Assembly: GCA_000827325.1 (NCBI GenBank)
Contig: KN832886.1
Coordinates: 883,479 to 947,478 of the forward strand
Source of the DNA: Oidiodendron maius Zn
Lineage: Eukaryota > Ascomycota > Leotiomycetes > Myxotrichaceae
Direction of reading: 5' to 3'
Length of the DNA: 64,000 nt
Part shown: in pieces, positions 10,375-39,506 of the stretch
Numbering within the stretch: position 1 is the stretch's first letter
Layout: each line of letters opens with the position of its first letter
Notes under the pieces: generated by a model
Seen by the model: only the letters and a program-made list of their open reading frames with translations
The model's database searches: none
What the model was told of the DNA's origin: nothing
Translations under genes and position numbers: made by a program

Positions 10375-11711
10375 ATGAGGCCCATCTTCTTCATACCGGC
10401 CGCGAGTCTGATCATAACAGGCTTCTGCATCAGCAATGCTTCTTCAGCCCATACCCCCAGAGTCAGCCTTGCAGAGTTGCAACAACAAGCATATCAAAAC
10501 CAGCTTACTGAATTGAGCAGACGTACCAGTGGATGCACGCTGGAAAACGTGGCCGTACGCAAAGAATGGCAAGAGACTCTAAATCTAACCTTACGAGCCT
10601 GTATTATATTACCTAGATCTAACCATTACGCGTATAGGAGCTCTCTGACAGCAGAACAACAGATCAACTACACTAATGCCGTATTGTGTTTACAATCTAA
10701 GCCTGCTATAACACCAAGGTCCGTTGCTTCTGGAGTTCGCAGTAGATTCGACGATTTTGCTGCAACCCACATCAACCAAACTCTTATCATTCATTTCGCC
10801 GTAGGTTATCCTTCGATTCCATGGGGCGCTGAGCTGATCAAATCGAAGTCCATATTCTTTGCCTGGCATCGATACTTTGTTCATACCTATGAACAGGCAC
10901 TCATCAATGAATGCGGCTACAGTGGTATTCAACCATACTGGAACTGGTCCGACAATGCTGCCGACCCTCTCAAGAACACCCTTTTCGACGGCTCTGAAAC
11001 GTCCATTGGCGGCGATGGGGCCTATATCCCTCACAACGTATCCCTTATCAATATACCGGTTATAAATATAACCGTGACACTGCCAGGTGGTACTGGTTCT
11101 GGTTGCATCTATAGTGGGCCTTTTCGAAACATGACAGTAAATCTCGGCCCCAATAGCGCTCTGGACTATAACCCCCGCTGCCTAACTCGAGACTTTCGTG
11201 GATTCCTCTCTAATGAGTATCTCACGTACGACAATATTACTTCCCTCATAACCGGGTCCAACGATCTGAATAACTTCACTGACACAGTCAACCTGTCTAA
11301 TGGAATACACAGCAAGGCCCACCAGACCGTCGGCGGCCTGGAGTTAGACCTTTATGCTAGTGCCGGGGACCCGGCATTCTACTTCATTCATACACAGTTG
11401 GATCATGTCTGGAACACCTGGCAGTGGCTCGACCCTAAGACTCGCATCAATCAAGTTTCCGGCACCTTGACCTTCCAGAATAGTCAGTATCCCATTCCTA
11501 GACCCTGTGCCACTGCAAGCCATACCATATCCCCAAGCCTCGTAAAATACGTAGCATTTACTGAGGGACAACTCTAACACCCTTAATAGTTCCTCCTTCT
11601 GCCAATGGCACCCTTTCTACTCCTATGGATTTGGGCTATAATGCTGGCCCTGTGTTGATGAAAGATGTCGTATCTACAATAGACGGTCCATTTTGCTACA
11701 TCTATGAGTGA
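10375..11711 (+). CDS. Secreted tyrosinase (type-3 copper oxidase)
   Basis: Predicted exons 10375-10568, 10638-10800, 10849-11482 and 11590-11711 give 370 residues. A signal peptide ends near SNASSAHTPR. The CuA site reads THINQT...IIHF...FFAWHRYF and the CuB site GIHSKAHQT...FYFIHTQLD, so all six copper-binding His positions are present. Known role: oxidation of phenols to o-quinones by the tyrosinase family; the substrate here is unknown. Intron 1 (69 nt, GC..AG) and intron 2 (48 nt, GT..AG) are multiples of three and stop-free, so the unspliced frame stays open and misleadingly yields a 400-codon ORF ending at 11577. Splicing restores KEWSSLTAEQQ and IHFASIFFAWHRYF. Intron 3 (11483-11589) removes that stop and adds the conserved tail ending GPFCYIYE. 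Neighbouring kelch gene converges. Confidence 0.88.
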
Positions 11712-18218: not shown

Positions 18219-18998
18219 AAGAAGTATATAACTTATATATGAAGTTAGAGCCTTCGCCCAACCAGCTGCAGGTCACGCCTTGTCTGAAGGCGATACTCAC
18301 CCAATACACACCGTTAGTCACACTCTTCTGTCAGATCATGTGAGTGTATAATCTCGGTGGGATTATCGGGTGGGGTAGTGACCGATCCCTTGCTGAACAT
18401 GTATGGGTCTGGACCTCTTACATAAACACAATAAGCTATCATATGACGATTAGTACCCATCTATAGAACGTAACGGAGTAGCGGACGTCTCTTAAAGCGT
18501 GTGAAACTATTACCAGCGAATAACTGTTGTTCTACGTGGACAGCCCATGTTTGTCGTTGGCTAACTACCTCGCAAGACAGTCAAGCTGTTGTGACTGGTT
18601 TTAGCGGAGGTATGAAGAATAATTATGAGCGACGCCCCGGTCAAATTCTCGGTAGTCAGGGGTTGCGTTAACTGTTTTGTGATGGCACCTCCGTCCGTCA
18701 TTGCAATTAAGACTTTATATTATTCAGGCTAAAATAAACTATAGTAGTCTGGCAAAACACAACTGCGGGGTAATAGAGGAGCAATTCCCATCCTTGCTCT
18801 CTACCCACTAGTGCTGGGTTTAGCAGGAGCTGTGGAGGTTGTCGGCCTTCAATATGTGGCTGGATGCACATGGGTCCGAGACAGCATCGCGACTTAAATG
18901 CACTACACCATACCACTTAATCTGAGAACAGATTCTACCGATCTCGAGGTTTACCTAACAGCAACCTAACAGCAAGCTTGGTCGGCACTTGATCCAAC
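18219..18998. other. Upstream region of the glycosidase
   Basis: No gene recognised. A 69-codon minus-strand ORF at 18707-18916 is not supported. Presumably includes the promoter of the downstream glycosidase gene. Confidence 0.4.
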
Positions 18999-20732
18999 AT
19001 GGATGTATCGCTTCAAGTCAATATTTCACTCAATCCATTCAGCTTCAGTGGCTCGCTGCTTAGCTTGTCACAAGTTGGGCTTGCTGGATCGGAAGTACAT
19101 TTAGTATCACACTGTCGCGACGGCGGCGCCCCTCTACTAACCCTTCTTCCTGACATAAGCGATCCGGTCAGCATTTTGACTGTAAAGTCGACTTCATCAC
19201 TCCTGCAGTGGCAGGGTGGTGATAAAGCTGTTGCAGAAGCCACATTCCAAGACGAGCGGTGCATCCGCTTCAGCGGCAGCGTGCCTCTCGCCTTTCAGGC
19301 CGCCGGTGGCGACTTCATGTACCAAAGGCCAACATTTCAAACTGGGTGGCAAACAGTTGAATACTCGCTGGAACCAATCAAGAATCATATATTTATTCTG
19401 TTGAAAGGAAAACTTAACGATGAGCACCTCAGCAATTTGACGCTGCAGGTTGAAGCTGACGGGACGGATCCCAATTGGGGCTTGCTCTTCTGCGAGATAG
19501 AAAATGATGCAAATGCTGTCGGCAGTGGCGTTTTCTGGGAGAACTCCACTATTGATGCCCAATCGACTGAGGTTCTCACCAAGGCGACGGAGAACGATGC
19601 GGAATTCAACAAGTTCACCAATCAACTTTGTCCGTGGTCAGCGAGTAACCACAGCGCGGCAGAGCGCCTCGCTAGTTTTGTGGAATGGTCCTGCACCGTC
19701 CGCGCGGGTGGGAGGTTTACCAGAGATGTGGTCATCATGTCTAAAAATTGGATGAACAGGCAATGGAGCTGGGATAATTGCTTTAACGCGCTTGCCCTCG
19801 AGCCGTACAGCATGGACTTTGCCCTCGATCAGATCCAGATACCCTTCGACTATCAGAGCCCTGAAGGCCGGTTACCTGACTACGTCCAGTGGGGAGCGAC
19901 GGAGTGGGCTTATACCAAGCCGCCTATTCAAGGCTGGGCTCTGGGAAGACTACTCAAGAGGCAGCCTAACATGAACAAGACCAGGCTGCTGCAGCTGTAT
20001 CAACATACTGCTAAGTTCACAGATTTTTGGATGCAACGACGTCGTACTGATCACTCAGCCTTGCCGTGGTACGCCCATGGCGGAGATTCCGGCTGGGACA
20101 ACTCATCCGAGTTCGACGAAGAGAGCATGATTGTGAGCGCCGATTGCGCAGCGTATCTCATCATTCAAGCCGACATTTTGGCGCAAGTGAGCCTCAAGCT
20201 AGGTCTAAGCAACGAGGAGAATGAGAAATGGATACATCTCAAGCAATACCTGACAACGGCTGTTCTCGGGGAACTCTGGAATGGGCAATCCTTTGCTGTA
20301 AAGAACGCTTTCACAGGAGAAACACGGCCGACGACATCTCTGCTCCGTCTTGTGCCTCTGGTTGCGGCTGCCCATTTACCTCCTGACGTTGTGGCAAAGA
20401 TGGCTCAGGATTTGGACAAGCATCTCACCGAGTGGGGGCTGGCAACAGAGGAGCTTGATTCTCCTGTCTATCAGTCGGATGGATATTGGCGTGGTCCTAT
20501 ATGGGCACCACCCACCCTTCTAATTGAATCTGGACTTCGGGAGGCCAATTACACGGGCGTAGCAGACACAATTAGCGACCGCTTTATTGAGCTCTGTGAG
20601 AAGTCAGGTTTCGCGGAGAACTACGATGCAAAGACAGGAGCAGGGCAGAGTGATCCGTCGTATACCTGGTCTGCATCCGTTTTTCTTGTATTAAGCAGAG
20701 AGAGGGCAGAACGGCGAGTACTGCAAAGATAG
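18999..20732 (+). CDS. GH63-type six-hairpin glycosidase
   Basis: Intronless, 577 residues, no signal peptide. Residues 1-190 form a beta-rich N-terminal part. Residues 220-570 carry the (alpha/alpha)6-barrel motifs of the GH63/mannosylglycerate hydrolase-like group: WSWDNCFNALAL, LPDYVQWG, HGGDSGWDNSSEFD, DSPVYQSDGYWRGPIWAPP and FAENYDAKTGAGQSDPSYTWSA. The Asp of GGDSGWDNS and the Glu of FAENYD fit the acid/base pair of the clan; this assignment is by analogy. It is shorter than ER glucosidase I (over 800 residues) and lacks a membrane anchor, so ER N-glycan trimming is unlikely. A cytosolic or secreted alpha-glycoside hydrolase is more plausible. The frame is clean; gene intact. Confidence 0.82.
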   Translation: MDVSLQVNISLNPFSFSGSLLSLSQVGLAGSEVHLVSHCRDGGAPLLTLLPDISDPVSILTVKSTSSLLQWQGGDKAVAEATFQDERCIRFSGSVPLAFQAAGGDFMYQRPTFQTGWQTVEYSLEPIKNHIFILLKGKLNDEHLSNLTLQVEADGTDPNWGLLFCEIENDANAVGSGVFWENSTIDAQSTEVLTKATENDAEFNKFTNQLCPWSASNHSAAERLASFVEWSCTVRAGGRFTRDVVIMSKNWMNRQWSWDNCFNALALEPYSMDFALDQIQIPFDYQSPEGRLPDYVQWGATEWAYTKPPIQGWALGRLLKRQPNMNKTRLLQLYQHTAKFTDFWMQRRRTDHSALPWYAHGGDSGWDNSSEFDEESMIVSADCAAYLIIQADILAQVSLKLGLSNEENEKWIHLKQYLTTAVLGELWNGQSFAVKNAFTGETRPTTSLLRLVPLVAAAHLPPDVVAKMAQDLDKHLTEWGLATEELDSPVYQSDGYWRGPIWAPPTLLIESGLREANYTGVADTISDRFIELCEKSGFAENYDAKTGAGQSDPSYTWSASVFLVLSRERAERRVLQR

Positions 20733-21789: not shown

Positions 21790-22588
21790 TACTCTGCTTA
21801 GCTATCTAACTGGTCAAGCTGCCACTCCGCATGTTGGGATGCCAACGCCCCCAAAGATAGAGGTGACAATATCTTCACTAACCAGTTTACTAAGTCCAGG
21901 TATCCTCTGGGTATAATGTATAACGTTGACGGTGCGCGTTTCGTCGATGACGGCATTGATATGCGTAACTTCATATATACTAAATTCGGTCGTGATATTC
22001 TGCAGCAGCGCAATGGCATTATATTCCAAATATGGGACACTAGTGGCGCCAGCTAGCTGCGGTCAGAAGAGTGCTCCGATGATGTGGTCCAGAAGGTCAC
22101 TGCCCTTTCGATCGAGGAATTGGCTGAAAAGATCAAATCATACGGGCTAGAGAATGTGTATGGTTTTGTGAGCTCGATTAGGGAGTATAATGCGGCTATA
22201 CAGAAGTATGAAGAAGAAAGTCCGAATGCAGTGTCTGATCCGTTACTGAAACATGGCCTCTTGACGAGATTGGCATCAACAGGCCTTATGCTAGACAAGC
22301 CCAACTGGGCTCTCCTTATTGTGCAAGTGCTGTTCCTTGCGGTGAAGGTCACTTGTAGCATCACCTTTACCTTTGGCGGCCTCAAAATCTGCCCTAAGAC
22401 GTTGGCGGTTATCTCAGAAGCTACGGGCCAGCAATCCCTGGTCTCTATTGTGCTAGTGAGATGGCTGGTGGGCTCTTCTATAATAACTGCCCGGGTGGCA
22501 GCGGTCTGATAGCGGGTGCTGTGTTTGGGAGGAAGGCAGGGATAAGTGTAGCAGGGAGGGAATCTGTATCGGAGAAGCAAACGGTATA
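21790..22588 (+). pseudogene. C-terminal remnant of FAD-binding-2 flavoprotein (TcuA-like)
   Basis: From about 21800 the plus strand reads NQFTKSRYPLGIMYNVDGARFVDDG, then NFIYTKFGRDILQ. A long segment follows (SIEELAEKIKSYGL, EYNAAIQ, GLMLDKPNWAL, ITFTFGGLKICPKT), then after a frameshift near 22450 SEMAGGLFYNNCPGGSGL and IAGAVFGRKAG. These are the substrate-binding and C-terminal FAD blocks of the FAD_binding_2 family (fumarate reductase, tricarballylate dehydrogenase TcuA and relatives). The N-terminal GxGxxG nucleotide-binding part is absent, replaced by AT-rich DNA. A stop occurs at about 22055. The tricarballylate-like assignment is a suggestion; the superfamily is firm. Its position next to tricarboxylate genes is notable. 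Confidence 0.75.
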
Positions 22589-23526
22589 ATCGTTATTATA
22601 GAAATCTTGGGCCTGTGTGGTATGAATGGGTATGGTTAGGGTATTGAGATTCAATTTCTTATAACCCCCCTATATGTTTTGTATATAGCTATAGGTAACT
22701 AGCTGCTTATATACCTAAGTTTTTATCGGATTATGTCCGACTATCTATTAGTACTGGTATCTAATACAGCTGAAACGATTTCTTCCTATAACGGAAGAGA
22801 TTCGTGAGTCAAACTGAATGTGTTTTGATCTTTTATTACTATATTCTCCTGGCTGTATGTATTAAGCTTGTTGAGAGGTCGGTTGCCGGTGGTATATGGC
22901 TTCCACTTTATATTCTCTGGTATTAAAGAGACAAAAGCGATCAACGGGTCAACTAAAGTATATGAAATTACTTTTTCTGTTGCGGTAAGACTTGAGTGTA
23001 AGAAAAGTGAGCAATATATCCGCTGTATGTGTTATAGGCTATTCTTTACTCTAGTGAGAAGTCGCTTACCTATAGATATACCTATAGACTTCTCTTTGCT
23101 TGCTGCTTATTGCAGCTAAGGATAAAAACGATTTGCAAACTTGCTTCTCTGGGGTAAAGTACCTGGAATGTCTATTAAAGGCTATAAGAGACTTTCTACT
23201 AGTATTATTGTTTGTAGTCCCTCAAACTAATTGAAGTTTATCTGTTTACTTTTGTAATATTGTAATGCTTTTTCTTATAGACTGTGTAATGGGGGTATTT
23301 GCCCTTTTATAGTAGTCTTAAAATTTCCCTTTTGACTTAGTCTATAAGCGTGCTGAATCTAAGGCTGATTAGATAGTGAGTATATATAGACAATTGTGAC
23401 AGTAGGTCTTCAGGATCGTGTCTCGTTCTGATAGACTTCTATGGCAATTTTCTCTAGACAAGGATCCTATAATGAGCTATTCCGGACTAGTTTATGCGGG
23501 TCAAAAGTTATAGTAATATTATTCTA
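22589..23526. other. AT-rich region without recognised gene
   Basis: A plus-strand 83-codon ORF at 22868-23119 has no recognised domain. The rest is AT-rich with frequent stops. It may be decayed transposon DNA; I see no diagnostic motif. Confidence 0.4.
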
Positions 23527-23790
23527 TGTTGAGCTGGTATAAGGCTTCAAGCATATCTACACATGCGATACAGCTGCCTACTAGGCTGCCCACTGGTGCC
23601 TATAGGGTGACTAAGTGGGAGCCTATTTGGTGACTCAATTGAGTGTATAGTATTGAGCATAAAAGGCTCTAGTTCTCCTGAATCTCTTCTTACTTTAGTT
23701 GTCTCTGCATCACTTAATATAACACTGAGTTTCACCTTGATTCCTGACTACGACCTGTGCACTATGTGACCTCAGTTCAAGATTCTATAT
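23527..23790 (+). repeat. Solo LTR truncating the carboxylesterase gene
   Basis: Starts TGTTGAGCTGG at 23527 and ends CCTCAGTTCAAGA at about 23790. It is close to identical to the LTR at 2570-2830 over GAGCCTATTTGGTGACTC and the following 130 bases. No internal element flanks it, so it is a solo LTR. The minus-strand carboxylesterase reading stops at its right edge. Confidence 0.82.
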
Positions 23791-25006
23791 AGGACGAAAT
23801 GCAGAATACGTGAATGAGGATTTTATGATTAGATCCTTAACGTTACTGTTCGTAACTGGTTTACGGTATTTGTCGCGTTAGGTGATATATTTAGTTTCTT
23901 ATATATCCGATTGTACCAAGACTCGGCTTCTTTTGATTGTATAAGTTCAACGGAGAAGCAGGTTGACGATGATAGAATAATCTGCGGAATTTTTAGGTGT
24001 AGGCCTAAGATAAGTGCAAGGTAGTTAAGTATTCCTATCTGAAAGTTAGTATATAAAGGTTAAAGTGCTATATGTGTAGTTTCTGTGTGTACCTGCCTGA
24101 GCAGATTCTCCAATTCCGTAAATATTTTCTGGATCACCACCGAAGTCATGAATATGTTTCATGACCTAGTAGAATGAGCTTGTCAGACGGTGCGACCTAT
24201 ATCTTGTTGGGGTTGCACAGAAGATAAGTTTTTATGGATGACTTACCCAGTCAAAGGCCATATGCGCGTCTAGAAGACCAAGATTTGCAGTGGATCGAAA
24301 GCAGAGCGGAATATCTGTTTGCATAGACACCTTTTCAGCTAGTTTGCAAGAATGCAAGTAACCTAGGATGCCAACGCGGTAATTGAATGTTACAACAATC
24401 ATGGGCATATTCAACTTGATTGAACGCCTTGCCAATTCTGTTCCATCTGCAAAGTTTCATGGACGTCAGATATCAGACTTACCCAATAATGTCTGCGCAC
24501 ATACCATAAAGATTGAACCCCCCATCTGCACCTACCATATATGACCCTCCATGGACCCAGACTAGAACTAGGAGCCGTGTCTTCATAGCAACCCCATCTA
24601 GATTTCCTTTGGCAGCCACCGGTACCCATATGTTGAGATTCAAGCAGTTAAACTCGTCTACCATGTCGGGCTTGATCAATATTGCGTTCTTGCTTAGTCG
24701 ACCGAACAATGGAATGTCGGCGACGTCGAACAGTGGTCGAGAGATCTGGGGGCAACCGGGACCAAGCTGTGTGCAGGCTTTCAATCCTAGCCAAGGACCT
24801 GTCTCCCTAGGATCCGCCCACCTGTATGCAATTTCTGCATATTTCATACCGTGAACTTTGATAATCCCAGCTGTCGTGCCATTTGGCCCGGTATCTGTCG
24901 CTCCGCTTTGCTCAAACTCGACAGCTACTCTGCCGAGTCCAGTATCAATCTCGACTATATCAGACCCAAGAGTCGTCGGTGTTTGAGACCGAATATGTTC
25001 ACCCAT
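23791..25006 (-). pseudogene. Carboxylesterase (type B), 3'-truncated by LTR
   Basis: Begins MGEHIRSQTPTTLG at 25006. Exons deduced: 24505-25006, 24247-24446, 24093-24165 and 23791-24038. Blocks in order are GMKYAEIAYRWADP, GPGCPQ, FNCLNLNIWVP, VLVWVHGGSYMVG, GGFNLYDGTELARR (restored by the GTATGT intron at 24447-24504), IVVTFNYRVGILGY, NLGLLDAHMAFDWV and KHIHDFGGDPENIYGIGESAQAG, which includes the nucleophile Ser in GESA. The fourth exon reads IPQIILSSSTCFSVELIQ and RIYKKLNISP, then stops at the solo LTR. The later catalytic Glu/His are lost. Joining exons 3 and 4 needs a one-base shift, a second lesion. It is divergent with the tricarboxylate carrier, with which it shares a 302-bp promoter region. 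Confidence 0.8.
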
Positions 25007-25084
25007 GGTAATCTCGCCTATAGATGTATTTATTTTGTCTCAAGACGTTGAACGTTTTACAAGGTCATCATATCTGGAGAGGCG

Positions 25085-25094
25085 GGGGTACCCC
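25085..25094. promoter_or_regulatory. GGGGTACCCC palindrome in divergent promoter
   Basis: A perfect 10-bp palindrome in the 302-bp gap between the carboxylesterase start (25006, minus) and the carrier start (25309, plus). Its core GGTACCCC recurs at 28569-28576 in the PrpF/MFS divergent promoter. Candidate binding site of the neighbouring Zn2Cys6 regulator; inference only. Confidence 0.4.
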
Positions 25095-25308
25095 GGTGGT
25101 AACCCCAGTGGTAAACTAGGTACTTCTGTTTGGCGGCCCGGAAAGAGACTTCCCGCGGCGGTTATAAGATCTTTCTTGACGCAACCCCTTGCAATTTCCA
25201 AGGACCAATGGAATTTCTAAAATGCATTTCTCGCAACTAGAATAACTGCCCTCACAATTTTGGTCATTGAAATCAGTAACGGGCCTTGAAACGATACAAG
25301 GCCACAAG

Positions 25309-26456
25309 ATGGCGACCGAGTTAACTTCTCAGGCACAACCACCAGAGGAGATTCGGATCCAAGATAAAGCAAAGGTATATTATATCCACCCAAAACCGCA
25401 ACCAGGCAAATAAACCGTCTTAGCTCATACTTTGTTAGCAATATGTGTCACCGGCGGTGTCCTTGATAGCGGGCGGTATTGCCGGTGGCGTAGAAGCAAC
25501 CTGCACGGTATTGTTGCCCTATCCTTACAGCACTCGGATCGCCTGCAATTTTGAGACACTCATATCACTAACATTTGGATGTTCCGCCTGTTAAGTATCC
25601 ATTTGAATTCGCCAAGACTCGACTTCAACTTCGTACTATTCAGTCTCAATTGACAACCAGAACAAATCCAATCCGTCTGATCCGTGATATTGCCCGAACA
25701 GAAGGCGTCTCATCCCTGTATACAGGCTGCTCACCGCTGGTGCTTGGAACTATCTTCAAGGCATCAGTGAGGTTTCTGACCTTTGATTCCATAAAAAATG
25801 CTCTCGTTGATGAAAAAGGTCATCTTTCTAAGTCGTCAGGTATCTTAGCCGGCATGATGGCAGGATGTGTAGAAAGCGTGGTTGCCGTCACCCCAACTGA
25901 GAGGATTAAGACAGCCTTGTAAGTCTGACTGACCCATTAATTTTATATCTAGAAGTCGTCGGTCTGTTAATATATCTCTACTAGAATTGACGACGCCAAG
26001 GAACGCAAGCGGTTCCGCTCCGTCACTCATGGTGTTCAACTCTTGGTCCGTGAACGGGGGCTACTTGGCATTTATCAAGGCTTAATTGCTACAACCATTA
26101 AGCAATCCGCCACTTCCGCAGTTCGAATGGGATCGTACAACACGCTGAAAGAAACTGCCAAGAGTCACAAAATCCCGCTCAATGCACTCATGACGTTTGG
26201 CATTGGATCAATTGCTGGCGTCATAACGGTCTATGCTACTCAGCCATTTGATACCATTAAGACACGACTTCAGGGTACAGAGCACACATCGACCAAGGAA
26301 ACTATTGTTGGAGTTTATAGAGAGTATGGGGTAAAGGGATTTTGGAAAGGTAGTACAATGAGGCTGGGAAGGCTCATCCTCAGTGGCGGCATTGTTTTCT
26401 CAGTATATGAGCAAGTTGCTGCTTTTTTGTCTTTAGCTGCGGCTAACAATAGATAG
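25309..26456 (+). CDS. Mitochondrial tricarboxylate/citrate carrier (SLC25 family)
   Basis: Exons 25309-25374, 25439-25507, 25596-25918 and 25985-26456 give 309 residues, about normal for the family. The first exon MATELTSQAQPPEEIRIQDKAK was placed by phase and the GTATAT..TTAG intron. It joins to QYVSPAVSLIAGGIAGGVEAT, the first carrier helix. The three carrier signatures are YPFEFAKTRLQL, TPTERIKTAL and QPFDTIKTRLQG, each ending a repeat. Their wording (Glu/Thr positions) is closest to citrate/tricarboxylate carriers such as yeast Ctp1 and the MttA type. Expected role: exchange of citrate or cis-aconitate across the inner mitochondrial membrane. Intact. Its 3' end converges on the PrpF gene with 245 bases between. 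Confidence 0.88.
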
Positions 26457-26701
26457 ATGATCAGTAGACTATTTATTCGAAAAATTAAGTCATAGACCTT
26501 ATGGAGTGAGAGATACAAGAAGTTATCCGAATGTACTCTAAACCGGGTCGCTCTTTGGCTGTTTTTGACCTACCTCATCCGCCAATAAATAATGCAAGAT
26601 TGATGATAACGATAGGGTTTACGGCATCTCAGTCGGAGCAATGCGAATGAGCTATTATTATTCACATAATCTAACCCGAAATCCAAAGTCGCCCTCTAAA
26701 T

Positions 26702-28148
26702 CTACACAGAAACAAGAATCGTACCCTCAAATAGTCTGCGAGCCGTTCGGAAAACGGTGATGCTCTGCACTTGATTCTCCTCACCGATACTGACTTCAAC
26801 ATCAATCGTACCACTGTTATGACCAATGACTATATGGCGATTTTCTTGATGTGGCTCAGGTCGGGTTTGGATCATGCTACACGGGGTTCCTTCTTTCATA
26901 CTCTGCGGGGTGACGTTTAACGATGATAGCTTGCTAGAATTCACCAATTCTGAAACTACTGTTCCTTCGAGAGAGGCGGCAGCTCCAAGGCAGACAGCCC
27001 CAGTCAGTTGGACGCTGGGATGAACTTTTCCCATGCTGTAGGCAAGTACAAAAACATCGGACGCATTACCAGAGTCCGATAGCAGCGCGGGAGGTTTTGA
27101 GACGAGAGTAATCTTAGGAGTGCCTCTTCGGAGACTGGCGGTTTCGGTATCTTTGGCTAGGCCGTAATCAACAGCTCCTTGACATCGGATAGACTCAATT
27201 ATGTCGAGAGAAATGTCAGAGTCTTGGGCTGCAGCGCAATATGCTGGAGGCATTGTAGATGAATCGACGAATATAAATGGGTTGGAGACGTCTATAAGTG
27301 TCGCCCTAACGGTAAATGGCTCTGGCATGCTCTTCGCTTTCACCAGTAACTCATCACAAGGCCGGCCTGTTGGAAAAACGCTACCAGTCATGCTCCCACC
27401 AGGATTGATAAAAGATACTTTGATGCTACTCCCAGTACCTTTGACACCACTGATCCTATATTCACCGTCTTCTAGAAAGTGACCATCGGAATCAACCTGG
27501 ATTGTCTCTACCAGGGTGGACTGCGTGTTGGTATTGAAAATTGTCACTGACAGCTAGAGTAAAACGTAGAGTAAGCGTATAAGTCTATGACAATCTAGTT
27601 TATCTTTAACATACCTCGGATTGGCCCGGTACTGCAGTCACCAGTCCCTCGTCCAACGCGAAAGCCGCAACTCCAGAAGCCATATTGCCACAGTTCCCCG
27701 TCATATCGACTTTTTCTTGCCCAACGGTAATTTGGAAGAAGGTATACTCAACATCAATCCCGGGTTTATCAGATTTAGAAACCACAACCGCTTTGGACGT
27801 TGTCGATGTAGCGCCACCAACGCCTTCTAACTGTCTGGGATCATTGTTTCGAGAGCCCATGGCGCTTATGAGAATCGCATCCCATTCTGAATGTGACGAT
27901 GGGAGATGGTGACGATGAAGAAATAGTCCTCGCGATGTTCCCGATCGCATTAGCACAGAAGGAAGTCGATAACGTCTTCGCTGGCCGGTCGCCCGAGTTT
28001 GTAGTACCAAACCTTTAGGTTTTGCGAATGCGTGAGGCGTAGGCTGCTGGGGCAACACGGCAGCTAAACTGCGCGTTGTTGACATGGTGAAGGCAAGTGA
28101 TGTTCGACTAAATAAAGATGACAACCTAGTTCTTGAATAAACCTTCAT
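26702..28148 (-). CDS. PrpF-family isomerase (aconitate/methylaconitate type)
   Basis: Exons 27615-28148 and 26702-27553, split by a 61-nt GT..AG intron (PGQSE/LSVTIFNTN), give 461 residues. The start at 28148 (MKVYSRTRLSSLFSRTSLAF) provides a basic, Ser-rich leader that looks like a mitochondrial presequence. The frame is open further upstream (28316), but that extension is less plausible. PrpF hallmarks: SVLMRSGTSRGLF near the start, VDMTGNCGNMASGVAAFALD mid-chain, and GAVCLGAAASLEGTVV late. Known members isomerise 2-methylaconitate, 4-oxalomesaconate or cis/trans-aconitate (Ustilago Adi1). Divergent from the MFS gene. Substrate not determinable from sequence; an aconitate-like acid is inferred from the adjacent tricarboxylate carrier. 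Confidence 0.88.
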
Positions 28149-28568
28149 CTGCCTTTCAAGTGCGATAGTTGCCAGCGTGTGAGTTTTTTGATATCTAAGT
28201 GCTGGCAGAGACCAAGGCAAATGATACCGGGACGGGGCGAAGGAAACACAGAAATTATGCCAAGCCCACAAGTACCGAAGATAAGTGGCAATTACAACTA
28301 GTGACTGTACTTTCATCTAAACAGCTTTCATATTCCGTTTGCCTTCCAAAGTCATGATCCATCACAGGCAACTGGCTGGGCGGTAATTGAGATTCCGCGG
28401 CTAATGACTTCCCGTGGCTGCACACAGTCCGGCACGCCACGCGGACCCCCAACAATGGGGCGGTTCCTGCAGTAGTAGCCTGTGAGAGCTTGATATTTGG
28501 TCAGGATAGTACGTCTGATATAGTAAGACAGGCGAGAATATGGCAACCCCGGCCGCTGTAGCCATGCT

Positions 28569-28590
28569 GGTACCCCACCCCCCGTGGGGT
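28569..28590. promoter_or_regulatory. GGTACCCC with overlapping inverted repeat in divergent promoter
   Basis: GGTACCCC at 28569-28576 overlaps the inverted repeat ACCCCAC-CCCCC-GTGGGGT (28572-28590), 187 bases before the MFS start and within the PrpF/MFS divergent region. It shares its core with the site at 25085-25094. A TATA-like GGATATAAAACAC lies near 28649. Candidate operator; inference. Confidence 0.4.
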
Positions 28591-28776
28591 CATGGGATGA
28601 TCACGTCCGGGGGAGAAGAAAACGGGAATACAACCACAGCCGACCTGAGGATATAAAACACTTCTGGATATCCATCCACCTTTCCCTTGATGCTTCTCTC
28701 CTTCCTCCTCTCTTCCTCTGCTCCGCCTATTTCCTAGTCTATTTAGTAATCCTTGGTGTACAAGACCTAATCAAAC

Positions 28777-30418
28777 ATGGCTGGGCGCACCAGGTTTTTT
28801 GAGCTGCGAGGGACTCGGCTTAAGATAGCCATGATGTTGTGTGTTATAGCACCTAGCTTCGTTCTCTTTGGGTATAACAATGGGTCAACTGGCGGGATTG
28901 CGACACTGCAGTCGTTCGTACATGTATGTGGCTGCACTCTCTAGTGCAATTGTAATCCAGTTGGTCTGAGTTCACCATGCTGATGAAAGGCCATAGCAAT
29001 TCCCATCGATTGACACGGTCAACACCAAAGGGGCCCAGAAGGCTCAAAATGCCAGAGTCAAAGGCGTAGTGACTGGCTGCTACGATCTCGGAGCTGTTGT
29101 TGGATCTCTGCTGTGCATTGCCTATAGCGACCGGATCGGCCGCCTACGGACCACCTTCCTGGGCTTGATTCTGTCCATCATTGGCCTGGCCCTCGAGTCC
29201 TCGGCCTTCAACCTTGCTCAGTTTATTGTCGGAAGATTGGTTGTGGGAGCAGCCATCGGCACCATCAGCAGTGCCATTCCAGTCTGGCAGTCGGAGTGCT
29301 CAGCCACGTCGCACCGGGGGGCGTTCGTGATTCTAGAGGGCCTTTGTATCAGCAGCGGCATTACACTCTCGGAGTGGGTGGCGTTTGGACTGTCCTTCCC
29401 GTCCAGCTCGGCCGTTCAATGGCGGGTCCCGTTGATCTTCCCCGTTATTCTCCCAATCTTTGTGATGCCTTTTCTCTTCCTTATGCCAGAGTCGCCCCGC
29501 TGGTTGGCTAAGAATGGCAGGATGGAGGAATCGCGGCAGGTGTTAGCGGCCTTGGAAGATGTAGACGAAGACTCTGCGACGGTCCAGAGGCAGATGGCTG
29601 AGATTGAAAGATCCCTGGCCCTAGCCACCGGTAAGCTGAAGGAGTTAACCAAGAATGGAGAACGAATGCTCCATCGCACACTCCTCGCGGCGTGCGGACA
29701 GATGTTCCAACAAATGTGTGGTATTTCCGCTCTGGTATTCTACACGAGCAGCGTATTCGAAGATTTGGGCTTTGCTGGAGTGAAGTCACGCGTCCTGGGC
29801 GCCTCCCTCACAACATTCCAGACCTGTTGCGCCATCATCCCAGTTTTCTTAATTGATCGCTTTGGCCGGAGAAATCTATTTATGATCACTGGTGGGGGAT
29901 TGGCTGTCTGTACGGCAGTGATTGCTGGGACGGGTGGAGCTAAACATGGCTCTGCTCCCACTGCTGCGGTCGTCTTCGTCTTCCTCTATGACTTCTTCTA
30001 TCCCATCGGATTCCTCGGCCAAACCTTCTTGTACGCCACAGAACTGGCGCCATTAAGCCATCGCGTGCCTATCACTGCCATCGCCAACGCAACGCAGTGG
30101 CTGTGTCAGTTTGTCGTGGCCCAGGTCACTCCACCTGGTACAACTAATCTGGGAAGCCATTACTGGATCATATACGCTGTGCTAAACGCATCGTTTGTGC
30201 CAATAGTCTATTTCCTCTTCCCCGAGACCAACGGACGCTCCCTGGAGGAGATGGACACCATCTTCAGACAATCCAAGAGTATCTTCGATGTCGTTAGGGT
30301 TGCCCGCGAACTTCCCCGGCAAGACCCTGAAGCAACATCTGATATGTCGTCACTAGAGGGTGCGGCGCCCTCAAAACCAAACGCGGTTGTGAATGAAAAT
30401 GTGGAATCGAAAGTCTAA
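28777..30418 (+). CDS. MFS transporter, sugar-porter type
   Basis: Exons 28777-28923 and 28997-30418 (73-nt intron) give 522 residues. The first exon supplies helix 1 (IAMMLCVIAPSFVLFGYNNG) in the position of the FGYDxGxxGG motif. Other hallmarks are DRIGRLRT after helix 2, MPESPRWLAKNGRMEES before the central loop, FQQMCGISALVFYTS in helix 7, DRFGRRN in loop 8-9, and PETNGRSLEEMD after helix 12. These are sugar-porter signatures. The C-terminal tail is hydrophilic and acidic. Located at the plasma membrane by family. In this setting it may import a sugar or export an acid; known itaconate exporters Itp1 and MfsA are of a different MFS subfamily, so cargo is open. Converges with the regulator gene. 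Confidence 0.88.
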
Positions 30419-30690
30419 TGTCGTTACATATTTACTGGATATAGTACTTAATTCAAACGTTTGATTGTCATCTGGCCAGTTGGATTGTAACCTCTAAGTT
30501 AAGCGCGGTAAATAATACAAGTAGCCTATTCTACATTATATGGCAATTATTCGCGTGCTTGATGACAGTAGTACTGTTTTAATCCAAATTGGCCGATGTT
30601 CAGTGCCATTAAACCTCAATATTCCCTCGCAGCCTTCTACCGACAGGTCTTCGATGAAATTGAACAGACAGAGAAGCTAGCGCAACGCGG

Positions 30691-33627
30691 TCAGAATACA
30701 CGGTCATCAAACTCCCACCCAATACCTTCAGTCGCTGAGCTATTAAATCCGAACAGCATATCATCGGCCAAAAACTGCGTGGAAAGTCTGTCGGGTATAA
30801 AGGTGACACCAAAAGTATCACCCGGGGAGCTGACAATATTCTGGCTATGCGAATCGTCGGCCAATATGTTCTCTTGCGAATAAGAAGTAGAAGGGAGCCA
30901 CTGGTTAGTGGTGGTGGATATATAGTCTGCTGGATCTTCTCGTGTTGTTTGAGCTAATTGTCGGTCACTCTGTTGTTCGCGGAAAAAGCTTTGGATAATA
31001 GCATCTATGTTCAGATCGGATGCAACATAATCGGACATCTCTGCATCATAGGGACTAGCAAACATTGCGGAGCTTTGACCAATGTCTGAAGCATTGACCA
31101 ACTGATGTGATTTTTTGTGCCTGGCCTGACTCTGGGAATCATTAGGCAGCTCCGGTGGCAGTAGTCTGTCCTCACTCGTCACGTTTGGTTGGGATATCGA
31201 TTCTTGACTATAGCGAAGTCCAGTAACGTTGGTATCATCGATGTTCACATGCATACGTTTCATGAGATTTTGAATAATATGGTTGGCCCTCCTCACAGCC
31301 CAGTTGGTCTCTTGGTTCTTTTTGAAGACGCTTAAGCACGTCGCGAGACAGACGTGTGCCTCGGAGCCGGGATCCCTCTGTGCTGCGACTCTTACGTGGA
31401 TTGTCGCACTTACATACGTGGCATAAGAGATCAAATATGGTGCTCGCTGGATCGAAAAGGCGGCATCATAGGCTCTCAATATCTTAACAATCATCTTGGC
31501 GGCGGTAGCACACACCAAGAAAGAGTTGATGGCATTAGACGGACTAGAGTGGAGGTCACCGTCAGATACGAATGGCCTGTGGAGCAAGATGAGAAGAACA
31601 TTATGCATTGCCCTTGCATCATATTAGCCAAACACTCAGAGCCAGGACAAGGTAAGCTTACAGCAAAGAAAGAACGTGCGGTGGAGGAATTGGAAGCGAC
31701 CCATTGGATGGATCATAGTTCAAATGGGGTGGTAGATCAATCCACCACTGATCGAGAGTTGCGTGCAACGATTTTAAATCTTCGGCAAGTTCACTTGGAG
31801 TCCTTTTAGAGCTTCTCTCTCCATACACCTTATTCAAGATACGATTCATAATGAGGCTAAGTTTGCAGAGCTCCGTGAAGGTAGAGACACTGTATGCAGG
31901 AGATCCAGGGTGGCTCTGAGTCGCAGAATACGCGAATGGCTTCCAGTGCTCGAGCTCTTCATAGTTATCTAGGAAAGAGATAGAGACACTGCATTCAAGC
32001 TCTTGTAAACTAACAGGTCTTCCTTGGTATAAACTTTGAATCTTGTCAACCACTGCCACGGTCATCGACACTGCGTTAGCCAATTTATTGAAATTGTAGG
32101 AGTCCGTACAGATTCTCTTACCGAATGCACCCCAGAACACTCGCCGCCGTATTTCTAAGTCCTCATCTGTAAATCTCCGATAGTTTGGTAACCTCGAACC
32201 ATCGACGTGCATTCCTAAATCTGTAATCATGCGGAAGGCTGTTCCAGCATAGAGCCAAGCAGCGCTCCGTTCGTCACCGAGGGCAAATAACGAGCTAGCC
32301 ATCACTAGCAGTGCTTGAATAGTTGTGACGTCGCTCCGATCAAGAGCTCCGCCGAGCAGCTCCCTTACTCGCTGTCGATACAGCCATCCGGCGGTCCGGA
32401 CATCGCTGGGATCGCGACGAACTTCCAAACGGGAGCTGAATTTAGATGCTCCAAAATATATGGCGTTCAATAAGAGCTTAGAGAAATATGGCCCACAGCA
32501 GGCCATGTCCCGCATAAAAGCAGGACGGTATGTGATTAGGAAAGCGTGATGTTGACGGTTCCAGTGCAGATCTAGAAGGTGCAGTCCCAGTTCGGGATCG
32601 ACTCCATCAAAATCCAGCTTCTTTTGGGATAGATTTATTACTTCCATGTGGCCTAAATTATAATCTTAGTTAAAAACGACACACAGAGTAGTAAGGGTTC
32701 AATGGCATACGTTGGCTTGCCGCCTCGGCCATCAGACTCTTTTGTACCCATGCAGGTGGAATTTTAGGCATGGCAGGTACATTCTGCTGCGCTCTCCGGT
32801 CCCCAGAGCTGTCTTCGAAGAGAGTGCTGGTGGGGCCGTGATATCGCGGCTCTCCTTCAGCTAAGACAATTCTTGGTTCCATATTTGATGGGTTGGCACT
32901 GGGCTGCTCATTTTCAGGCATGGATGCAGGTAGGACATTTTCAGCCGTTGATCCGGCCAGAGTTGGCACTTGGGGCGACGAGCGTGGACAATCAGCGGGC
33001 TCTATGCTCCTACTTTCGCTCGATGGATTATCAGGAGAGCGCTGCTTGGATGAATTTTCTGCTAAGTGACCGCGGCCTTCATTACGATGGCCAGTTTGAC
33101 ATGCTAAGACCGACAGTGACACTCTTAGCTGCTCATTCTCCTCCTCGAGTTGTGAAATGCGCGAGTGAGACGGTCTGGAATCGTCAGCTGTATTTATAAA
33201 TCCAAGTCCAGGTTTCTTGAAAGTGCTAACAGAAAACGTAAGATGGTCACTTTTTTTGGAGTACTGACCTTGGTCGTCGGGGGAGTTCATCATAAACGCA
33301 GGATTTCCCGTGGACATCACAAACTTGACACGATGGCTGTCTATTATCACATTTCATCTATAAGATTTATGAGCATATTCCATAAACACATGCCATCTTC
33401 TCAAAAACAATGCCCGTCTATCCTACCAGGAGGACCAAGAATGCATTGCTCCGCCCACGTCAAACCGGCCACCACTTCTTAGGTCTTGAACGCAAATATC
33501 CCATAGGCGCTTGAGAATGAGTTTGACAAGTAGAATAGGGACAGCCCAGACGCCCCAAGAAGCTCACCTTCCGCTGCCGGCAGAACCGACAAGCCCTCAA
33601 GGCTCGTCGAGCACCGTGCTTCTTCAT
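30691..33627 (-). CDS. Zn2Cys6 transcription factor with fungal-specific domain
   Basis: Five exons deduced: 33568-33627, 33269-33357, 32711-33174, 31662-32652 and 30691-31612; 841 residues. The zinc cluster is split by a 210-nt intron. ACRFCRQRK (exon 1) joins MKCDNRQPSCQVCDVHGKSC (exon 2), giving Cys-x2-Cys-x6-Cys-x6-Cys-x2-Cys-x6-Cys. A linker and coiled coil (ISQLEEENEQLRVSL) follow in exon 3. The fungal_trans domain spans exon 4, with TTIQALLVMASSLFALGDE, MITDLGMHVDGSR and RRRVFWGAF. The tail is Ser/Gln-rich and could be activating. All junctions keep frame. Expected role: nuclear regulator, probably of the adjoining carrier/isomerase/porter genes, because such regulators commonly sit in the clusters they control. 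Confidence 0.9.
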
Positions 33628-34819
33628 TTCACGCCACTGGAAGGTCCTCTAAAGAGACGAGGCCGGTATGAGACTTCAGCTCGAGCAGCTAATAAGCAAG
33701 TGGAGTCGCTGTTTCTGTCTTCAATCATCAACAAAGGAAGTGTTTGACGGTAAGTTCTTCTCCACGGAAATGTGGGCGTAGATGAATGGCCAGGTCCTCG
33801 GGAAGTGAGATCCCGCGGCAGCGCGGAAATATCAATGGACAGGGTTGGCAATAAGTCCCCGAATCGAGTCTTTACGCCTGCTCGGCACGTGGCCGGTCAA
33901 ACAATGGAGAAATTAGCGGGGCGAGAAGGGAAACCGAAGGTCAGTCCCTCATTTACCATGAGTGGTTTCATGGACCTCCCAATTGTATGGTTATTCAGAC
34001 CGCTTCCCAAGCTCTTGTTGGGCGAGTGGGAGGCGGGGATTTAGTTTTCAGTGGTAGGAATACAGGAATACCTCTCTGTGCGGACAGACAGTTTTGCGAC
34101 GGTGTCTGATCCAAGTACGGTGGGCTCTGGCCTACGGGGCGCCTGTAATAGTGACAGCATTGATCGCCGTGATTCTCCGTTGTATTTTCTGTCCAGCTCC
34201 GGAAGCGTTATGATCGCATCTATGAGGAGCACTAGGCGGCCCAGATGCGCTACCGTATCAAGAAGAAGAATTTGTAAAAAGCGAGGCTTTTCTTGACTCC
34301 GACCCCCCGCCCGCGGGCACGTGAGCCAATTCTACGGGGGGTCGGTTTGTATCACGTGTTTTAGAGGCTTGTGATTGGCTAATACCGCATTCTTATTGGT
34401 CCATTGCAGAACTCGACCTCACCTGACCTCGTGTTAACCTGCGCTTGCAGTCCTCTAGTAGAAGACAATGTAATAGTTATATTGTAGTATATTACTATAG
34501 AGCTCTGCCGGACTGCAATATATAGAGGCCATTTGCGCTATCGAATTATTTGCAGCTCTTATCAGCCAGCTGAAAGTGCCGGCTACTGCAACAGAATGAA
34601 ATTGCAAGTTAATAGAACCTCAACTCTAACACAATTAAAGTGCCATGTTGACGTGCTCCTTTCCACGAAATGGTTCCAAACAAGATAATGGTTTGGATAC
34701 CGATGGGTCATGAGTTAAAGAATTTCTCAAGTTTGGTGAAACCAGCAAAGACTTATTATATCTTCCGACTCGGCCACTAAGTCTGTCATTTCTTCCTGCC
34801 AGCCCTTGCATCTATTTGG
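33628..34819. other. Regulator upstream region, GC-richer intergenic
   Basis: No supported gene, although several short ORFs exist (33772-34044, 34051-34296). Two CACGTG E-box-like sites are near 34318 and 34355, and ATTGG/CCAAT boxes near 34327, 34375 and 34397. Together with the inverted repeat at 34299-34345 this looks like promoter DNA. Confidence 0.45.
34299..34345. promoter_or_regulatory. CCGACCCCCC ... GGGGGGTCGG inverted repeat
   Basis: Ten-base arms at 34299-34308 and 34336-34345, with a 27-base spacer containing CACGTG and CCAAT. Inverted CCG/CGG triplets are the classic target layout of Zn2Cys6 dimers. It lies about 670 bases upstream of the regulator start and 475 before the small secreted ORF. 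Possible autoregulatory site. Confidence 0.35.
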
Positions 34820-35564: not shown

Positions 35565-36768
35565 TTATTGCAGTGTCAGCACACCAGGTTGGTAAGGTAG
35601 CAGGTTGTAGCTCGGGTTATCATTAGGGTTGCGTCCTTGGTAAAGTAATTGCAGGCTGCCGCTGCAAGCATTGATGGGCTTAGTCTGATCATTCGTTGCG
35701 CGGACGAGGTCGCCGCTGCTGATATCGTTGGTCCAGGTGGCGCCGCTGTTGGCCTTGCCCGCGAAAGGAGATGACTCGCTCGTGGCCCCTGACTGCGCTG
35801 TCCAGGTACCGCCGAGACTGGACGCTGTGAATGAACGGAAGTACCGCCCGTTGGCGCCAATACATTCGACAATCATGAGATATTGGTTCTGGCCCTGGAC
35901 GCTGTAGACTTCGACTGCTTCGAACAAGTTATTAGTCGCGTCAGTCAGGATAGTCTCGAACGATGTCCCAAAGCTGGAAGGGAAGTCTCCAATAGGCATA
36001 CTTGCCCGGTAAATGTGACCATTATCACCAGCAAAGAATAGATACATGTTATTGTCATCACCAATAAGAGCTGGATCAATAGGGCCAGTGCTGCTGCCTA
36101 TGCTCCCAGTAAAGAGGGGCTGTGGCGAAGACCATCCATTGGGATTAGTAGGGTTGCTTGACGTCATGTAGTTGAAGGGGGCTGCTCCCCATTCCTGAGC
36201 AAGAACCCAGATGTTCTTCGGCGCGAAGTAGAAGAGGTCGGGCGCAACGGCACTGTTGGTCATAAGGGTCTGACTAGCCGACGCCAACCCGCTCCAGCTG
36301 GAAACAAGGCCGAATGCCATGGATGCGTAGTCTCCATTAGAGTCTTTGACTGTTGATGCATACACGAGATGCTCGCCGTTGAACGGGATAGTGCTGAAAT
36401 CCTTGAGCGAAACCCATGGAGACTTAGGGGTTGCTAGAGAGTTGGTTGATGTCCAGCGATATGTTGATGGGAGAGGGCATCCTGATGAACCCGTTGTACC
36501 TCCACTTGCAGTGCTGCTCGAAGGTTTCGCTGAAGTGGCTGCTGATGACGACCCACTTCCGCATGGAAGGCATTGTGAATAGTAAGGGTTAGAGACGATG
36601 CAGCATGACCCAGAAGCACAAGTTGTTTCCCCAACCCATCCATCTCCGCCGCCTGAAGCTGTCAGCCACGCTTTTAGAAGATATGGGTGACTTACATTGA
36701 CCCCATAGTGGTGATTGTCCCGCTACCAGCGGCAGGGCCGTAAGCAATGCAACGGCAAAACCTTTCAT
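35565..36768 (-). CDS. GH62 alpha-L-arabinofuranosidase with CBM1
   Basis: Exons 36696-36768 and 35565-36652 give 386 residues. Exon 1 holds the signal peptide [18 protein letters not shown] and LWGQ. A 43-nt intron ends CTTCAG, and the join restores [16 protein letters not shown], a fungal cellulose-binding module (CBM1) continuing to YYSQCLP. A Ser/Thr linker (about residues 55-85) leads to the GH62 domain, which opens [11 protein letters not shown] and has [68 protein letters not shown] and [16 protein letters not shown]. Known role: removal of arabinose side chains from arabinoxylan, extracellular. Intact. Confidence 0.93.
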
Positions 36769-38473: not shown

Positions 38474-39506
38474 TTGGGACGAAATAGCAGTCCAAACTTG
38501 TACACAGCTCAGGCCAGTATAAAGTCATGCGTGACAAAATTTTTCTTCCAGGGGGTAACTGTGAGTTTCGTAGGTATCGTTAGTGGAAGTCCACATCTTC
38601 AGATGCGAATTTCCAACAGAGTAGGCAAAACGCCAGCTTTAAGATGGAACAGTTGGGTAAGTTCTCGATCTATTCGTACATGTTTAATTTGGAAAGAGCG
38701 GTAATCGCTAATTCTATGCAAATAAGAATGCATTCGGTTGTAACGGTGCTTCAGCATCATCAGCTATTACAGCGGCTAACTAGTTTGTTGATCTTGGCCT
38801 TAAGCAGCTTGGTTACAAGTATGTTAGTATCGATGATTGCTGGTCCCAGGAGTCATGTAATGGGTCTGGCTATCTAGTGCCTGATCCATCCAAGTGGCCG
38901 AACGGCATTCGGGCGGTTGTGGATAAGATTCATGGTATGTGTCTGAAATTTGGTTTATATAGCGATGCTGGTATCGAAACATGCGCTGGTCATCCCGGAT
39001 CACAGGGCTATGAGCAGCAGGATGCAGATTTGTTGGGAAGTTGGGGTGTGGACTATTGGAAGTACGACAACTGCTATACCCTATGTAATGGAGAGAATCC
39101 AGTTCCTCAGAGGTGCTGCATTCCACGAGACTCTCAGGCATGGTACACTACTCTCGGAAATGCCTTCAGATCTGTCAATTACCCAATATTGTATTCTCTA
39201 TACTCTTGGGGTCTCGACAATGTTTGGACTTGGGGTGGATCAGTAGGTAACTCATGGAGAATGCACTCTGATGTCTCTAACGCATGGTCGTCGATTGTTG
39301 GAATTGCCTCGGCCGCAGCGGGCATTTCACAATATGCCGGTCCTAGAGGGTTCAATGACTTGGACATGATAGTGCATATTACCCTGAATGTGTCTGAGTG
39401 GAGCTAATCCCTCCAGGAAATTAGCAACGGCAGTCTTACTGTAGAGGAAGAGCGAGCCTATTTTATCTAAGTAATATCAAAATCCCCTATTATTCTTAGC
39501 ACTTGT
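38474..39506 (+). pseudogene. GH27 alpha-galactosidase pseudogene, 3'-truncated
   Basis: Reads GVGKTPALRWNSW-type sequence near 38620-38655, where GWNSW has become RWNSW (GGA to AGA). A GTAAGT intron is followed by NAFGCNGASASSAITAAN-stop-FVDLG. YKYVSIDDCWSQ, KFGLYSDAGIETCAGHPGSQGYE, WGVDYWKYDNCY (catalytic Asp in KYDNC) and MHSDVSNAWSS follow, then FNDLDMI. A last intron (about 39372-39418) leads to NGSLTVEEERAYFI-stop-VISKSPIILST. The reading ends there, at a Copia fragment. Lesions: stop near 38782, stop near 39469, and loss of the C-terminal beta domain. The Gly-to-Arg change and the stop could both come from RIP-type changes. Known role of the family: alpha-galactoside hydrolysis. Confidence 0.85.

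Follow-up and report, generated by a model that had tools for sequence, protein, structure and literature searches.

Why do genes for a mitochondrial carrier, a PrpF-family isomerase, a transporter of the major facilitator superfamily (MFS) and a Zn2Cys6 regulator lie side by side in an ascomycete genome, and what would such a set do? We addressed this for a stretch of 64 000 nucleotides from Oidiodendron maius Zn, hereafter the window, which spans positions 883479-947478 of contig C17 (KN832886.1) in a genome of 45.9 Mb and 58 contigs (C labels denote contigs of this genome, L labels extracted loci). The window is eukaryotic by sequence, with GT-AG introns and fungal regulator domains, and its positions 25309-33627 hold the four genes, all of them intact (Table 1). 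The answer we prefer, and to which we give about an even chance, is that they work together as a regulated module which takes up and breaks down an unusual tricarboxylic acid, with trans-aconitate, and at first tricarballylate as well, as the likeliest substrates. It builds on the observed gene content and intactness, on the relic of a TcuA gene, on a common promoter site and on the association of the same families at some loci of this genome and of bacteria, from which we infer substrate, direction, localisation and site binding.

In the proposed scheme the sugar-porter-type MFS protein would import the acid into the cell, the PrpF-family protein would turn trans-aconitate into cis-aconitate by moving its double bond, and TcuA, a relic here, would formerly have oxidised tricarballylate to cis-aconitate. 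The mitochondrial carrier would shuttle the acid between cytosol and matrix, aconitase would feed the acid so delivered into the citric acid cycle, and the Zn2Cys6 protein would bind CCGCGG in the three promoter regions, among them that of its own gene, and switch the set on. A sequence-only reading of this DNA had proposed export, which finds no support. Uptake and use fits better, because sugar porters mostly import, the lost partner TcuA is catabolic, and the bacterial relatives of PrpF sit with citrate-type transporters, TcuA and aconitase in loci that look catabolic.

All gene models were built by hand with GT-AG introns and are predictions. The carrier and PrpF genes run towards each other, as do the MFS and regulator genes, and PrpF and MFS are divergent, an arrangement that gives three promoter regions for four genes. 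The carrier is spliced from four exons without a stop and belongs to the mitochondrial carrier family (three Mito_carr stretches, three readable Px[DE]xx[KR] signatures); it probably handles tricarboxylates, judging by general features of the family and by its relatives in the same genome. The PrpF gene, with PF04303 over its cut-off, is spliced from two exons to 440, 461 or 517 amino acids, depending on the start codon. The second exon of the MFS gene (473 amino acids) passes the sugar-porter model TIGR00879 with 254.8 against 237.8 bits, as had been proposed from the sequence, and reaches only 27.1 bits with the TcuC model NF011656 (cut-off 445); sugar porters are a family of mainly uptake proteins. 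The regulator, of five exons, carries Zn_clus and Fungal_trans domains. With intact spliced models, matching family profiles, a TcuA-like relic and a carboxylesterase that matches part of its profile, the earlier observation of four intact, adjacent genes with broken flanks is confirmed. The gene set is real and intact, and its grouping by chance is unlikely.

Table 1. Features of the module and of its left flank; positions refer to the window
Feature	Position	Strand	Details
Mitochondrial carrier, 309 amino acids	25309..26456	+	exons 25309-25374, 25439-25507, 25596-25918, 25985-26456
PrpF-family isomerase	26702..28316	-	exons 28316 (or 28148, or 28085)-27615, 27553-26702
Sugar-porter-type MFS, 522 amino acids	28777..30418	+	exons 28777-28923, 28997-30418
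Zn2Cys6 regulator, 858 amino acids	30691..33627	-	exons 33627-33568, 33357-33269, 33225-32711, 32652-31662, 31612-30691
TCCCGCGGC, candidate zinc-cluster regulator site, upstream of carrier	25151..25159	+	CCGCGG at 25153
TCCGCGGC, candidate regulator site, shared PrpF/MFS promoter region	28394..28401	+	CCGCGG at 28395
TCCCGCGGC, candidate regulator site, upstream of regulator gene itself	33811..33819	+	CCGCGG at 33813
TcuA-like flavin adenine dinucleotide-dependent tricarballylate dehydrogenase, pseudogene, C-terminal half	21811..22553	+	alignment to C22 relative L027:812-2491
Carboxylesterase fragment, N-terminal part only	24479..25039	-	PF00135 7.3e-14, profile positions 25-120 of 515

The relic next to the module points to its chemistry. 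TcuA is a catabolic enzyme that converts tricarballylate to cis-aconitate. The window copy has an in-frame stop near 22054 and a frameshift near 22425-22431, and its N-terminal half is missing; it aligns to residues 294-541 of an intact protein of 560 amino acids on C22 (50.7% over 207 amino acids, E 2.7e-68), to which a second frame of the relic is 74% identical over 43 amino acids. The C22 protein passes the NCBIfam TcuA equivalog NF006130 (498.9 bits, cut-off 369) and lies below a second TcuA model, TIGR02485 (226.6 bits, cut-off 372.55). Since this relative exceeds the NF006130 cut-off, the name TcuA-like, already used in the sequence-only reading, is probably right; the assignment draws on the profile scores of the relative, the relic itself being half a protein. 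Taken alone, the longest open reading frame (ORF) of the relic had no match in a Pfam scan and only meaningless ones in a PDB search (E 0.06 or worse). The module has likely lost its TcuA.

The palindrome CCGCGG, a pair of CGG triplets of the kind bound by zinc-cluster proteins, is the sole palindromic 6-mer, of 64, that is present in all three promoter regions. Among 5000 random triples of segments with matched lengths, drawn from the fungal stretches of the analysis and the window, CCGCGG was common to none, some palindrome of G and C only to 4 and any palindromic 6-mer to 119; as the segments and the limit of 192 bp were picked after the sites were known, the shared site is a lead and no proof. 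The regulator may bind at these sites. An extended motif, GAGAN{1,3}CCGCGG, has five matches in the window, from 14125 to 48308 (0.14 expected), of which two lie in module promoters and three elsewhere; the carrier site does not fit it.

The bacterial relatives of the PrpF protein provide the broadest comparison. We inspected the loci (3 to 21 kb) of the best 80 of at least 530 confirmed relatives, which are 32-37% identical to the window protein; some loci are near-copies of one another and many contigs are cut. A TcuA match, counted from at least 120 amino acids, was found in 24 of the 80 loci (in 20 with at least 40% identity, in 12 no further than 150 bp from PrpF), an aconitase-family gene in 28 (16 within 150 bp), a CitMHS transporter in 24 and a PrpD-family gene in 16. 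Nine loci contain TcuA and PrpD in addition to PrpF; bacterial neighbourhoods of TcuA, PrpF and MmgE/PrpD genes are seen at L097:7038-11140, L042 and L036. In total, 69 of the 80 loci contain at least one of the query families, i.e. TcuA, aconitase, PrpD, a citrate-type transporter or citrate lyase, one of them (L070) with a citrate-lyase match only. As a background, about 44 TcuA rows over the cut-off were counted by eye in 40 of these genomes (169.3 Mb), so that a 21-kb stretch would seldom hold one; among the 40 corresponding PrpF loci a TcuA match is present in 17, in 16 of them at 40% identity or more. Thus PrpF relatives tend to lie with genes of tricarboxylate transport and breakdown, and these neighbours, together with the TcuA relic, support the aconitate/tricarboxylate theme that had been suggested from the sequence.

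Does the isomerase itself tell us its substrate? The equivalents of Lys73 and Cys107 in the PDB entry 2pvz, which we take to be the catalytic pair, are kept in the PDB alignment; 5k87 carries Glu at the Lys73 position. The closest PDB relatives (169-178 bits) are 2pvz (PrpF), 2h9f (hypothetical, presumably PA0793), 5k87, 3g7k (Mii) and 6otv (YbhH), followed at 134-139 bits by entries that we assume to be LigU. The protein reaches 220.9 bits with the 2-methylaconitate isomerase model TIGR02334 (cut-off 440.55) and 253 bits with the 4-oxalomesaconate tautomerase model NF033377 (cut-off 440), which is too low for either equivalog name. A tree with 93 rows was calculated in a short search, with support from the Shimodaira-Hasegawa-like approximate likelihood ratio test (SH-aLRT) only. 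Its PrpF and Mii references were taken from the PDB alignment text, because a search for reference isomerases gave no prpF over the cut-off in 11 genomes; the tautomerase was over its cut-off in 6 of 12. The end branch of the window protein exceeds all others in length (2.73) and attaches basally to a mainly proteobacterial clade (SH-aLRT 89). In approximately unbiased (AU) tests, joining it to GalD/YbhH, PrpF, Mii or a relative on C7 gave p values of 0.35, 0.729, 0.489 and 0.581, and the trees held for the PrpF and C7 placements outscored the free tree; with no placement rejected, the phylogeny does not place the protein. The sequence-only reading had named grouping only with housekeeping methylcitrate or gallate-pathway enzymes as a sign against its view: the protein stays under both equivalog cut-offs, but the tree gives no placement.

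The N-terminus of the isomerase bears on its location. The first 40 residues contain 5 Arg/Lys and 13 Ser/Thr from the start of the 461-residue form, and 3 and 5, respectively, from that of the 517-residue form, with no acidic residue in either case. The PrpF paralogue on C7 has 7 Arg/Lys, 10 Ser/Thr and no acidic residue, and a PrpF-PrpD fusion on C36 has 4, 5 and one. The hydrophobic moments are modest, so that a location of the PrpF protein in mitochondria is at most suggested.

Related genes recur together at some other places in the same genome. All 27 loci with relatives of the regulator outside the window (E up to 0.001) were compared with those of TcuA and of the carrier, the list of carrier relatives including rows C3:1775714 and C7:1494823. 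Three of the 27 lie within 7 kb of a TcuA or carrier relative: the best-scoring one on C22 (TcuA), one at 771 kb of C17 (a carrier relative with stops) and one on C36 (carrier). The chance of this is 6e-4 under uniform placement, and 4e-4 for two of the first five loci being near a module family, a null that ignores the frequent location of such regulators in clusters. On C36 (L020 and L030, 20-33.5 kb), a Zn2Cys6 regulator, a mitochondrial carrier, an Amidohydro_2 gene, a sugar porter, a second MFS gene and an aconitase lie side by side; this is a larger sister locus. About 13 kb beyond it, on the minus strand, the PrpF-PrpD fusion (L009:2919-5660, 46.4-49.2 kb of C36) encodes 879 amino acids in one open frame across one modelled intron; in the tree its PrpF portion, on a long branch, clusters with Mii (SH-aLRT 90). 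The best-scoring MFS relative (C1, 47%) adjoins a PrpD gene, as the only one of the first ten MFS relatives (P 0.06), and a shorter match on C11 reaches 70% over 69 amino acids. A wider picture, which we put forward tentatively and as less probable than the module itself, would place in the window one of several related tricarboxylate modules that are scattered through the genome and governed by related Zn2Cys6 regulators; they would lead trans-aconitate and tricarballylate of plants into the citric acid cycle via a mitochondrial aconitate isomerase, with a sister locus that has an isomerase-PrpD fusion. For such a route from aconitate to the citric acid cycle via a mitochondrial isomerase we found no fungal description in the open-licence full-text literature.

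Three further groups of genes were noted. At 193-206 kb of C17 (L014-L016), an MFS gene and a PrpF fragment accompany three genes of the PrpD family and a TcuA-like flavoprotein (338.5 bits, TcuA cut-off 369, its ORF cut by the end of the locus), a group that resembles the bacterial loci with TcuA, PrpF and PrpD. At 285-302 kb of C22 (L031-L032) the intact TcuA relative is accompanied by two Amidohydro_2 genes, an MFS gene, a DUF1932 protein, a zinc-type dehydrogenase and a paralogue of the window regulator. Finally, a carrier paralogue at 766 kb of C17 (L017:5217-5904), with a stop in the aligned stretch, adjoins a pyridoxal phosphate-dependent decarboxylase at a distance of 5 kb from a regulator paralogue, and this locus may be another decaying module.

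Some families were sought in the window and not found. It contains no match to the PrpD/CadA family (12 rows at nine loci in the genome search, all elsewhere), to Lyase_1 (nine rows, all elsewhere), the family to which we take Tad1 to belong, or to citrate synthase; the statement that neither Tad1 nor CadA is visible here therefore stands. An aconitase was not recognised within the module. The window has 28 ORFs of 150 amino acids or more, and a domain scan that covered 20 of them found among these 20 no Cyp3- or Rdo1-type gene, no synthase for polyketides or fatty acids, and neither an amidohydrolase nor a ring-cleaving dioxygenase. The module is flanked by ordinary enzymes (18993-20732, 35565-36722, 38784-39407 and 10306-11577, i.e. 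an MGH1-like glycoside hydrolase, GH62 with CBM1, an alpha-galactosidase and a tyrosinase), and the G+C content of window positions 1-2000 is just 0.215, far below that of the remaining window.

The locus differs, as the sequence-only reading had it, from both known itaconate clusters. With that of Aspergillus terreus (CadA, MttA and MfsA) it shares a mitochondrial carrier and an MFS protein, but it has an isomerase instead of a PrpD/CadA-family match. A TcuA-type flavoprotein links it to bacterial tricarballylate utilisation (TcuA, TcuB and TcuC), but in the window TcuA is a pseudogene and the transporter a sugar porter. Bacterial loci with PrpF, aconitase, a citrate transporter and citrate lyase (Acidaminococcus, Lachnospiraceae and others) likewise combine PrpF with citrate-type transport and tricarboxylate enzymes, whereas the window module lacks a recognised aconitase and its PrpF is distant from theirs. 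The protein shares family and Lys/Cys pair with PrpF, Mii and GalD/LigU, but scores below the equivalog cut-offs and has no settled position in the tree. A fungal module for tricarboxylate utilisation of this type was not found described in the open-licence full-text literature.

The closest resemblance is to the itaconate cluster of Ustilago maydis (Mtt1, Adi1, Itp1, Tad1 and Ria1), in which carrier, PrpF-family isomerase, MFS and regulator are also adjacent, and it raises an alternative that we consider rather doubtful: the genes might make and secrete trans-aconitate, in the manner of the initial half of the Ustilago route. The carrier would then export cis-aconitate, PrpF would isomerise it and the MFS protein would secrete the product, which might act as an antifeedant or nematicide. 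The enzyme roles of the TcuA relic and of the bacterial neighbours point to breakdown instead. Unlike the Ustilago cluster, the window has no Lyase_1 match, and its 20 scanned ORFs include no Cyp3- or Rdo1-type gene. Mtt1, Adi1 and Itp1 represent the same three protein classes, and Adi1, of the PrpF family, moves the double bond of aconitate in Ustilago (excerpts of PMC4720413); moreover, aconitate isomerases of bacteria preferentially form the trans isomer and take part in synthesis as well as assimilation (excerpts of PMC13188880). However, the available part of PMC4720413 describes Ria1 as a helix-loop-helix protein, EmrD as the closest characterised relative of Itp1, and Adi1 as localised to cytosol and nucleus, whereas the window has a Zn2Cys6 regulator, a sugar porter, a TcuA relic and an isomerase that may be mitochondrial, as its N-terminus hints.

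An unlikely alternative places the genes in aromatic catabolism, as a branch of the gallate or protocatechuate 4,5-cleavage route in which PrpF would act, like GalD or LigU, as an oxalomesaconate tautomerase. The tautomerase model does outscore the prpF model, the AU test does not reject the grouping with GalD/YbhH, and Amidohydro_2 genes occur in the vicinity of the C22 TcuA and next to the carrier on C36; yet the score is far under the cut-off, amidohydrolase and ring-cleaving dioxygenase were not seen in the scanned window ORFs, one C22 amidohydrolase used as query had matches in none of the 80 bacterial PrpF loci, and a mitochondrial carrier would have no obvious role. A link between the two chemistries is kept possible by a 1965 proposal, cited in the consulted portion of a 2021 paper (PMC10512348), that in Aspergillus niger the degradation of gallic acid passes through cis- and trans-aconitic acid.

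We give little credence to secondary metabolism of alkylcitrates, methylcitrate or tricarballylate esters, for which carrier and isomerase would supply a modified tricarboxylate. The genome has nine PrpD-family loci and the PrpF-PrpD fusion, and mitochondrial tricarboxylate carriers occur in fungal metabolite clusters as well; this reading is lowered by the lack of a citrate synthase or PrpD match in the window, and the scanned ORFs include no polyketide or fatty acid synthase. That unrelated neighbours were grouped by chance in a decaying stretch of the contig is very unlikely: the left flank is decayed, with a base composition like that left by repeat-induced point mutation at 21-22 and 23-24 kb, and two neighbour genes are broken, but the four genes, all intact and with several exons, have a promoter site in common, and their families are found together again at some further loci of this genome as well as in bacteria.

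Several observations nevertheless weigh against a module for uptake and catabolism of trans-aconitate. TcuA is broken and its intact C22 relative is a 50% paralogue, so that just half of the proposed chemistry is encoded locally. The PDB matches of the carrier are all of other types (uncoupling, ADP/ATP, 2-oxoglutarate/malate and GTP/GDP carriers), which leaves the tricarboxylate class as a probable assignment. The PrpF protein is long-branched and each of its four tested placements survives the AU test, its bacterial relatives are of low identity, and 11 of their 80 loci contain none of the linked families. The same holds for 9 of the first 10 MFS loci and for 24 of the 27 regulator loci, which have none of the searched families nearby, including the C9 regulator with the top exon identity (61-63%). 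Finally, GAGAN{1,3}CCGCGG shows no genome-wide enrichment (181 matches, compared to 283 for the reversed control).

Among the acids of maize, sugarcane and sorghum the proposed substrate, trans-aconitate, is a prominent one (parts of PMC13188880 and PMC8871043), and it inhibits aconitase (same part of PMC8871043). If catabolism of trans-aconitate is indeed what the window encodes, the module would provide a short list of genes for the use of this acid by fungi, together with a candidate DNA site for the regulator, and it would offer new carriers, isomerases and transporters for the production of aconitate and itaconate in moulds.

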